From positions 1 to 64,000 of the forward strand of contig JAFTYU010000004.1 in assembly GCA_017461235.1 (NCBI GenBank): 64,000 bases of DNA. The letters are read 5' to 3'. This DNA is from Clostridia bacterium. Lineage in GTDB: Bacteria > Bacillota > Clostridia > Oscillospirales > Acutalibacteraceae. Below the pieces are notes generated by a model that ran no database searches, had not been told where the DNA came from, and worked only from the letters and a program-made list of their open reading frames with translations. Below are positions 243-1,382 of this stretch, piece after piece. Position numbers and translations under genes: made by a program. How positions within the stretch are numbered: position 1 is the first letter of the stretch; each line of letters opens with the position of its first letter.

Positions 243-302
243 TTTCGTTTGTTTCTTTCGCTTTCCCTTTGTTCAGTTTTCAGGGTATTTGCCTTGTTGA
301 CG

Positions 303-335
303 AGAGTTGAAGTTTTACTTCGACTCTTTTTTTCT
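303..335 (+). terminator. Intrinsic terminator of the rRNA operon
   Basis: Inverted repeat AGAGTTGAAG / CTTCGACTCT (303-312 with 318-327, one G-T pair) followed directly by a run of T. It lies about 60 bases after the 23S end, so the rRNA transcript appears to stop here without a 5S gene. Confidence 0.75.
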
Positions 336-354
336 TTATTTTTTGATTTTTTTA

Positions 355-383
355 TTGACAAATAAAAAATATAGTGGTAGTAT
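355..383 (+). promoter_or_regulatory. Sigma-A promoter of the tyrA leader
   Basis: TTGACA at 355-360, a 17-base spacer and TAGTAT at 378-383. The -35 is perfect and the -10 matches at four of six positions. A start near 390 would place the leader ORF at 409 right at the beginning of the transcript. Confidence 0.8.
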
Positions 384-408
384 CATAAAAAATGAAAGGA
401 AAATCGTT

Positions 409-462
409 ATGAAGAATGTTATCGTAGCTACATACTATTATTACTATTACTTAGGTGAATAA
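409..462 (+). CDS. Tyr-rich leader peptide (attenuator peptide of tyrA)
   Basis: A 17-codon ORF reading MKNVIVATYYYYYYLGE, with GAAAGGA as a ribosome binding site a few bases upstream. Six consecutive Tyr codons (TAC TAT TAT TAC TAT TAC, 433-450) lie inside one arm of a hairpin and just ahead of an intrinsic terminator. The next gene is prephenate dehydrogenase, whose pathway makes tyrosine. This is the classic design of ribosome-mediated attenuation: lack of charged tRNA-Tyr would stall the ribosome on the Tyr run and change downstream folding. The ORF, codon run and terminator are seen in the sequence. The regulatory mechanism is inferred. It is too short for usual gene callers. Confidence 0.85.
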   Translation: MKNVIVATYYYYYYLGE

Positions 463-522
463 GTAATAGTGATTTGTGCTGCTTTCTTTGTATCGTTTGA
501 TATTCCCTTGCAGTCATTCACT
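443..522 (+). promoter_or_regulatory. Alternative RNA folds of the tyrA attenuator
   Basis: Segment 443-452 (ACTATTACTT, within the Tyr codons) is perfectly complementary to 461-470 (AAGTAATAGT), giving a 10-bp hairpin 1:2. A stalled ribosome on the Tyr codons would block it. Freed bases AGTGA (468-472) and CTGC (479-482) can then pair with TCACT (518-522) and GCAG (510-513), which would break the terminator at 505-539. The first hairpin is certain by complementarity. The antiterminator is short (5 plus 4 bp) and tentative. Confidence 0.6.
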
Positions 523-539
523 GCAAGGGTTTTATTTTT
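505..539 (+). terminator. Attenuator terminator upstream of tyrA
   Basis: Perfect 9-bp stem CCCTTGCAG / CTGCAAGGG (505-513 with 521-529), a 7-base loop, then TTTTATTTTT. It stands 12 bases before the tyrA start and after the Tyr-rich leader ORF. Confidence 0.85.
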
Positions 540-551
540 GGAGGAATTTTT

Positions 552-1382
552 ATGAATATCGGTGTAGTTGGTCTCGGTCTTATTGGTGGTTCTCTTGCAA
601 AGTCCGCAAAGAAGAACACAAATTATAAGGTTTATGGCTATGATATTAATAATGAGGTTGTAAAGTCTGCAATTTCTGATAAAAGCATTGACGGAGAGTT
701 GACTGAAAAACGGCTTGCAGCATGTGATTATGTTTTTATACCGCTTTATCCTGAAGCAGTTATTGAATATGTCGAAAAAAATGCAGAGATTTTCAAGGAT
801 GGAGCTACTGTAATAGACTGCGCCGGTGTTAAACGTTCGGTTTGTGATAAATGTTTTGCTATTGCAGAGAATCACAACTTCTCTTTTGTAGGCGGACATC
901 CTATGGCGGGTACGCAGTATTCAGGCTTTGAAAATTCAAAAGACACAATGTTTTATAATGCACCCTTTGTTCTCACTCCTAAAGAGAATGAAGACATATT
1001 AATACTTGCGAATGCCAGAGAAGTAATTATGAAACTCGGATTCGGACGAGTTTCGGTAATGACAGCCCAAAAACACGATAAGCTTATTGCTTTTACTTCT
1101 CAGCTTGCTCACGTTGTTTCAAATGCATTTGTTAAAAGTCCGTCTGCTCTTGAAAGAAAAGGCATTTCTGCGGGTAGCTATAAAGACCTTACCCGTGTTG
1201 CCTATCTTAATGAGTATATGTGGACAGAGCTTTTCCTTGAAAATAAGGATAACCTGATATTCGAGCTGGACAATATTATTGCTGAGCTTCAGAAATACAG
1301 CGACGCTATGAAAGCCGATGATTCAGATACTTTACGTCAACTTCTCAGAGATGGCAAAGAGATGAAATTACGCGCTGATTGA
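552..1382 (+). CDS. tyrA: Prephenate dehydrogenase
   Basis: Converts prephenate to 4-hydroxyphenylpyruvate with NAD+, the committed step to tyrosine, in the cytosol. The 276-residue protein opens with a Rossmann nucleotide-binding motif (VGLGLIGGSLA, residues 6-16) and contains the family motif GGHPMAGTQYSGFENS near residue 116. The C-terminal part is helical, as in the dimerisation domain of the family. It lacks a C-terminal ACT regulatory domain, which many Firmicute TyrA proteins carry, so feedback may be weak and the attenuator upstream may carry most of the control. GGAGG at 540-544 fixes the ATG at 552. No T-box was seen, although Firmicute Tyr genes often use one. The gene appears monocistronic. 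Confidence 0.93.
   Translation: MNIGVVGLGLIGGSLAKSAKKNTNYKVYGYDINNEVVKSAISDKSIDGELTEKRLAACDYVFIPLYPEAVIEYVEKNAEIFKDGATVIDCAGVKRSVCDKCFAIAENHNFSFVGGHPMAGTQYSGFENSKDTMFYNAPFVLTPKENEDILILANAREVIMKLGFGRVSVMTAQKHDKLIAFTSQLAHVVSNAFVKSPSALERKGISAGSYKDLTRVAYLNEYMWTELFLENKDNLIFELDNIIAELQKYSDAMKADDSDTLRQLLRDGKEMKLRAD

Follow-up and report, generated by a model that had tools for sequence, protein, structure and literature searches.

Transcription attenuation in the trp, his and pheA operons of E. coli follows a 1:2 / 2:3 / 3:4 segment logic, with the regulatory codons lying in segment 1. The element described here shares this logic, and differs from the E. coli attenuators in that its stop codon falls before, in or after segment 2 and in that it matches no leader family of Rfam. 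Clostridia are usually described as using T-boxes for their amino acid genes, with the tyrosine genes of Firmicutes often among those under T-box control. The preliminary description of this locus drew the line between Proteobacteria with leader peptides and Firmicutes with T-boxes, but that line is too sharp: as far as the available portions of the reports go, Firmicutes have leader-peptide attenuators for Leu and His and probably also for Phe, and the mechanism proposed below is of an already known kind (PMC5794164; PMC9413887; PMC8632094).

Three such systems invite comparison. The S. aureus ilv-leu leader contains a leader-peptide attenuator, and its promoter activity rises on Leu depletion (PMC5794164). 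Like the locus described here, it combines an amino-acid-rich leader peptide, a terminator and an alternative antiterminator fold in a Firmicute; unlike it, it uses Leu rather than Tyr/Phe codons, and in the accessible part of the report its antiterminator pairs with the poly-U tail (PMC5794164). In the his operons of Firmicutes (B. cereus group, Peptostreptococcaceae and Erysipelotrichales), His-leader attenuators have been predicted by comparison, and these likewise have a run of codons for one amino acid, a terminator and an antiterminator; compared by that part of their description which is accessible, they differ in the amino acid, His, and belong to other operons and other lineages (PMC9413887). 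Finally, uORFC-13-1 of Acholeplasma aroF is an upstream ORF with Phe codon(s) for which attenuation has been proposed, and like the family described here it lies beside an intrinsic terminator before a DAHP synthase gene. By the accessible part of its description, which is all that is compared here, it has 24 representatives, from Acholeplasma and environmental sequences only, with at least one Phe codon and no mention of a Tyr run (PMC8632094).

The window analysed here (64,000 nucleotides in all) starts at the end of a contig, within a 23S rRNA gene (Rfam match, 1-243); the features given below lie on its forward (+) strand. Behind the rRNA end and 5' of the tyrA promoter, a pattern scan placed an intrinsic terminator at 302..328 (12 pairs, T tail), which sets the rRNA gene apart from tyrA. 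A sigma-A-type promoter, TTGACA-17-TAGTAT, follows at 355..383, with the -35 TTGACA at 355-360, a 17-nt spacer and the -10 TAGTAT at 378-383 (10 of 12 consensus matches, and TG before the -10). A likely ribosome-binding site, GAAAGGA at 394..400, precedes a leader peptide ORF of 17 codons at 409..462, which reads MKNVIVATYYYYYYLGE followed by a stop and whose Tyr run is kept in 9 of 14 same-genus tyrA loci. Its six Tyr codons in a row (433..450) form the presumed ribosome stall site. The tyrA gene itself, encoding prephenate dehydrogenase, occupies 552..1382 (PF02153, 8.9e-26; PF20463, 3.6e-15).

Three RNA structures can be placed between the promoter and tyrA. First, a leader hairpin (1:2, the protector) at 440..473 joins Tyr codons to the segment that begins with the stop codon, with arms 440-453 / 460-473 and 11 Watson-Crick pairs, or 14 pairs with one G-U. 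Second, an antiterminator can form from a 5' arm at 468..482, which contains the conserved core AGTGATTTGTGCTGC, and a 3' arm at 510..522, which overlaps the terminator: AGTGA 468-472 and CTGC 479-482 pair with GCAG 510-513 and TCACT 518-522 at -14.4 kcal/mol, and 87 of 90 alignment cells are paired in the genus. Third, an intrinsic terminator spans 505..539, with 10 pairs at 505-529 found by pattern scan and fold, then a U tract at 530-539, TTTTATTTTT. The leader RNA folds at -42.8 kcal/mol, compared with -27.1 +/- 3.1 for 200 shuffles, none of which equalled it. The promoter, the 17-codon ORF with its six consecutive Tyr codons and binding site, and the terminator before tyrA all stand where the preliminary description had put them, and the antiterminator that it regarded as possible has been located; its perfect 10-bp hairpin does exist and is built partly from Tyr codons, but it is longer than stated. 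Several hallmarks of leader-peptide attenuators are found together at this locus: a putative Tyr-rich short ORF with a start codon and ribosome site, a downstream gene, tyrA, that serves the same amino acid, an intrinsic terminator between the two, and a hairpin that pairs the regulatory codons with the antiterminator segment.

We propose, with a probability of roughly 0.9, that the element is a ribosome-mediated transcription attenuator that would tie tyrA transcription to charged tRNA-Tyr. With ample Tyr-tRNA, the ribosome would pass the six Tyr codons and reach the stop at 460-462, where it would cover the start of the antiterminator arm (468 on); the 505-529 terminator would then form and transcription would end before tyrA. 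With scarce Tyr-tRNA, the ribosome would stall within the Tyr codons and the leader hairpin would be broken; the freed core could pair with GCAG...TCACT, which would block the terminator and allow tyrA to be transcribed. In an untranslated leader, the leader hairpin would sequester the antiterminator arm and the terminator would form. The parts, their conservation and the co-variation of the alternative pairings across the family are observed; that ribosomes stall, that the RNA switches and that Tyr is the signal are inferred.

The geometry calculated on the window is consistent with such a switch. Given a 12-nt leading edge, a ribosome holding any one of the six Tyr codons in its A site has its edge 8 to 23 nt short of the antiterminator arm, and a ribosome at the stop reaches 4 nt into it. 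Across the wider family described below, the arm (placed by duplex) starts a median of 16 nt downstream of the codon run. Relative to the arm, the stop codon is upstream in 31 of 83 elements, internal in 19 and downstream in 33, the last group departing from the textbook layout. Whatever the position of the stop, the arm would be disrupted by a ribosome that moves freely but left alone by one that has stalled. Equilibrium folds of the full freed window RNA contain the terminator even when the Tyr run is covered, so the choice would have to be kinetic and made during transcription, a form of switching that we liken to that of known attenuators.

The position of tyrA directly behind the end of the 23S rRNA gene in this genome suggests another reading, in which the Tyr-rich ORF either encodes a functional small protein or is a product of chance, and all that the terminator does is to end rRNA readthrough. 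Runs of six successive Tyr codons do arise for other reasons, being present in 43 of 394 genomes of the order. Thirty such places were inspected, one per genome; 14 lie in frames of at least 70 codons, and among the 16 in shorter frames, judged by eye, the window's alone has a terminator and a Tyr gene behind it. None of the inspected places outside the window proved to be a Tyr leader. The separate terminator at 302-328 already stands behind the rRNA gene, with the promoter in between, relatives carry the element before DAHP synthase, and no rRNA match occurs in 20 related loci of about 3 kb each. The antiterminator co-variation reported below would also be without reason under this reading, which we regard as highly improbable. 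The 3' end of a 23S rRNA gene was seen directly before leader and tyrA in six genomes of the genus (the window's, L014, L017, L018, L019 and L023), and the Rfam scan of the window gave no 5S match between the 23S rRNA and tyrA. Tyr-codon-like trinucleotide runs also occur around position 1500 of L064, L072 and L081, loci of three families, just before a gene read as dnaN; these repeats resemble the DnaA-trio of an origin.

To place the attenuator among its relatives, TyrA was searched in 60 genomes including the window's; 30 loci were fetched and 29 read (L032, which ends at a contig end, was omitted), 14 of them from the same genus. The Tyr leader lies directly before tyrA in nine of these 14, and in three (G004, G009 and G019) tyrA sits behind DAHP synthase with the element before DAHP synthase. 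The other two, G001 and G018 (L022 and L021), have a promoter and a 74-75% identical tyrA without leader and terminator, and neither gave a model match even with the search filters off. These two may be cases of natural attenuator loss, and their leaderless tyrA genes indicate that the device is dispensable. An alignment of relatives' tyrA leaders, proposed in the preliminary description, finds the Tyr run, hairpins, antiterminator and terminator kept in the nine loci, with compensatory changes in the terminator.

All nine genus leaders encode Tyr runs, L019 (G012) and L020 (G015) with one Tyr replaced by Cys each (TAC to TGC), a change that keeps a G-U pair of the leader hairpin. The string AATAGTGATTTGTGCTGC is identical in eight of the nine, the core is invariant in all nine, and each has a TTGAC 54-59 nt upstream of its leader start. 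In the nine-sequence alignment, three terminator pairs have changed on both sides and 97.8% of cells are paired; the leader hairpin and outer helices have 95.5% of cells paired and show one-sided changes only. The antiterminator (96.7% of cells paired) contains no two-sided change. Because it hardly varies within the genus it cannot show co-variation there, and the support for it lies in the wider family.

A covariance model, R1, was built from the nine genus tyrA leaders only. Among 291 genomes of the class it found the element in six beyond the window's, in each case before DAHP synthase and then tyrA, and within the genus it gave one match each in G004 and G009 before the DAHP synthase-tyrA operon, with a further one in G004 before tyrS. 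This tyrS-linked leader (L095, G004:C3) encodes MFFKSSSSSAYYYYFYFKI followed by a stop. A second promoter-like site, TTGACA-17-TATAAT, lies between its attenuator terminator and tyrS, which makes attenuator control of tyrS uncertain. R1 found true members in 11 of 22 genus genomes, and G019 was added with the filters off; a second copy of the G009 element at a contig end (L096) was left uncounted. The count is 11 rather than 13 since three further matches (L093 in G021, L094 and L097 both in G018; E 1.3e-5 to 9.2e-4) have no Tyr/Phe leader and were dropped, having matched through a terminator-like hairpin. Two of these, L093 and L094, from two genomes of the same genus, carry a GCAGTTTTCACTGC-type terminator resembling that of tyrA without a Tyr/Phe leader.

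A second model, R2, of 18 sequences matched 46 of the 394 genomes searched in the order; in the class it matched 25 of 391, and in the phylum 4 of 378. The window's genome is counted each time, and the three figures are probably lower bounds, since the stricter filters of Infernal were used and few candidates were scored per genome (8 with R2, 11 with R1). The three elements outside the class, of which two share a genus and the third belongs to another family, all lie before DAHP synthase as judged by eye. A search of 22 sources with the filters off gave 12 matches at 11 distinct places (L028 and L169 being the same). Three of these places (G046, G052 and G056) were also found in the order search and G009 in the R1 genus search; G047 matched here, though it had given no match in the R2 order search that sampled it. 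The other six (G019, G027, G029, G032, L049 and L050) lie outside the order sample, and in L049 (Oscillospiraceae bacterium) and L050 (Ruminococcus sp.) the element is upstream of a DAHP synthase-tyrA operon.

All R2 matches of the order and class, together with the rest of the training set, make up a set of 84 elements, 66 of them from outside the training set. It was assembled from 53 loci and 18 more, and the elements of the window and of G469 came in through the training set. By tblastn, 69 of the 84 precede DAHP synthase (tyrA was also seen in 60 of these), 11 precede tyrA alone, one precedes tyrS, and three precede none of these but a gene for chorismate mutase-prephenate dehydratase (pheA), an AMP-ligase or an ABC_sub_bind protein, so that DAHP synthase, tyrA, tyrS or pheA stands behind 82 of 84. 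A terminator was found in all but G680 (83 of 84; median -18.9 kcal/mol), and in the 18-sequence alignment six of nine consensus pairs of the leader hairpin show a two-sided change in one member or more. The preliminary description of an attenuator for a single tyrosine gene is supported by conservation and co-variation as regards the attenuator; the element is not isolated, however, and its commoner form stands before DAHP synthase-tyrA. At one locus (L123), FMN and SAM riboswitches (1776-1911 and 2655-2754) lie within 1.3 kb of the Tyr/Phe attenuator element.

The leader peptides of this set are rich in aromatic residues, with at least five Tyr/Phe in an eight-residue window in 84 of 84 and at least six in 79, and a typical stretch reads A-Y-F-Y-F-Y-F. 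Since the models favour Tyr/Phe sequences and the ORFs were picked by Tyr/Phe density, the independent evidence comes from the downstream genes and not from this count. An ORF with a start codon and ribosome site runs across the codon run in the Tyr/Phe frame in 79 of 84 of these Tyr/Phe-picked leaders and in the other two frames in 8 and 3, and 78 of 84 have at least four of six matches to AGGAGG. The conserved core was recognised, in one of four forms, in 41 of 84 elements, where it follows the stop codon in 23 and is otherwise translated in frame 2 (10), frame 0 (7) or frame 1 (1). A core that is translated in varying frames or lies after the stop is not conserved for the sake of the peptide.

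The antiterminator was tested by a duplex calculation on 83 elements, from 45 genus-level and 25 family-level groups, in which the segment after the codon run was given its best pairing with the 5' side of the terminator. Native duplexes average -17.6 kcal/mol, compared with -13.4 and -13.5 when either arm is swapped between families. When each of the 45 genera is represented by a single element, native duplexes average -18.1, compared with -13.4 +/- 0.4; for the 25 families, treated likewise, the values are -17.8 and -13.6 +/- 0.6, and in neither case were any of 10000 permutations as good. When decoy segments (shuffled, reversed or taken from upstream of the leader) replaced the true one, 1945, 947 and 4846 of 5000 permutations were as good, compared with 0 of 5000 for the true segment. 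The native advantage, absent with decoy arms, indicates that the two antiterminator arms co-evolve. Natively paired arms fall below both swapped means in 73 of 83 elements. In 12 of 83, half or more of the terminators swapped in are as good; these 12 include both G004 elements and five of the nine genus tyrA leaders, one of the five being the window's. Its native duplex is -10.9 in this test, and 87% of swapped terminators and 42% of swapped arms do as well; folded as a single strand, its antiterminator reaches -14.4. An antiterminator pairing that excludes the terminator is therefore supported through co-variation in the wide family, the window's own pair being unremarkable.

The same core raises the question of whether AGTGATTTGTGCTGC is instead a receptor, that is, whether a ligand-binding riboswitch or a protein-bound antiterminator operates here and the leader ORF is incidental. 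Its invariance over 15 nt in the genus and its recognisability across families go beyond the needs of pairing alone, and a similar RNA of two hairpins and a terminator, the trpB motif, is classed as a riboswitch candidate in the accessible part of its description, with an attenuator not excluded (PMC11109978). In that motif (RF04312), as here, the right shoulder of the leader hairpin holds the antiterminator and a terminator follows (PMC11109978). However, the core has two alternative pairing partners, the codon arm and the terminator, and it co-varies with the latter; moreover, all 84 elements have the Tyr/Phe-rich leader ORF, which is near-pure Tyr where the genus tyrA stands alone. We consider a receptor improbable and prefer ribosome-mediated attenuation. 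Neither in the window nor in 20 related loci did any Rfam family attain its cut-off on the element; at eight loci scanned with E up to 1, the trpB motif was the sole match on an element, and its 30.9 bits (cut-off 59) are at background level, the best match elsewhere in the same genome scoring 33.6.

T-boxes are in use in the window's genome, with 12 matches, five of them above the curated cut-off, and a T-box of unusual form that senses tRNA directly might be imagined before tyrA. The Rfam scan of the window at the gathering threshold shows only the 23S rRNA and one tRNA, and no T-box match appears at 380-560 with E up to 0.1, where the sub-threshold trpB match is the only one; this agrees with the preliminary description, to which no T-box was visible. 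The GGTGGTACCGCG-like core of most T-boxes in this genome is not readable at 355-551, and the Tyr codons sit in frame with a start codon and ribosome site; a T-box here is exceedingly improbable. The T-boxes on the window's contig lie outside the window, at C4:73998 and beyond. By eye, the genes behind the host's T-boxes appear to include pheS, thrS, alaS, ileS, aspS, a trpB-like gene and a threonine dehydratase-like gene, and none of the readable ones looks like a Tyr gene (the gene behind L007 is off the contig). With T-boxes and a leader-peptide attenuator in one genome, the host would use both principles. Tandem T-boxes (L009 and L011, G000:C38:104299-104731) stand before the threonine dehydratase-like gene, and two T-box-led genes (L004 and L008, G000:C4:74397 and 77071) have products with, by eye, a helix-turn-helix-like N-terminal stretch.

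A search of the open-access literature, mostly at the level of titles and abstracts, gave no report of the element as Tyr-codon or aroF/tyrA leader-peptide attenuation. The Tyr/Phe family itself is apparently new, as are its spread and its link with DAHP synthase-tyrA, the nearest candidates having been compared by description. There is a good chance that these elements form an undescribed, old family of Tyr/Phe-sensing leader-peptide attenuators which controls the entry to aromatic synthesis and the tyrosine branch in many families of Clostridia and at least two families outside, occurs also before tyrS, pheA, an ABC binding protein gene and an AMP-ligase gene, and has had its codon run rewritten to match the gene, mixed before DAHP synthase and near-pure Tyr at the split-off tyrA. 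Such a family would predict when these bacteria make their own tyrosine and phenylalanine, a defined RNA model of it could join Rfam, and its members would offer a natural series for comparing the codon content of one attenuator with the gene that it controls.

Before DAHP synthase, which catalyses the first step of the common pathway, the median Tyr fraction of the codon run is 0.5 and Phe is present in 68 of 69 elements, mixed codons which suggest that the element before DAHP synthase-tyrA operons probably senses both amino acids. Before tyrA alone the median is 0.86 Tyr (n=11, nine of one lineage). A pure Tyr run is not a general trait of tyrA-only leaders, as the other two read YYYLGFVY (G171, Tyr-rich) and FFYNSYFF (G745, mixed); because nine of the 11 belong to one lineage, the idea of rewritten codons rests on few independent events. 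A relative of the DAHP synthase of those operons is present in three of 22 genus genomes and was not found in the window's, which has a PF00793 protein of another type behind a gene read as EPSP synthase, with no Tyr/Phe-rich ORF in the 620 nt before the conserved region of its gene. In the simplest story, tyrA would have kept the attenuator after the operon broke up, and the codon run would then have become Tyr-only. Two elements stand before genes of other kinds: at L167 (G535:C158) a Tyr/Phe leader attenuator precedes an AMP-binding ligase (PF14535, PF00501) that may be an aryl-acetate-CoA ligase acting in the breakdown of aromatic amino acids, and at L178 (G379:C1) one precedes an ABC_sub_bind protein (PF04392), which may serve to transport aromatic amino acids.
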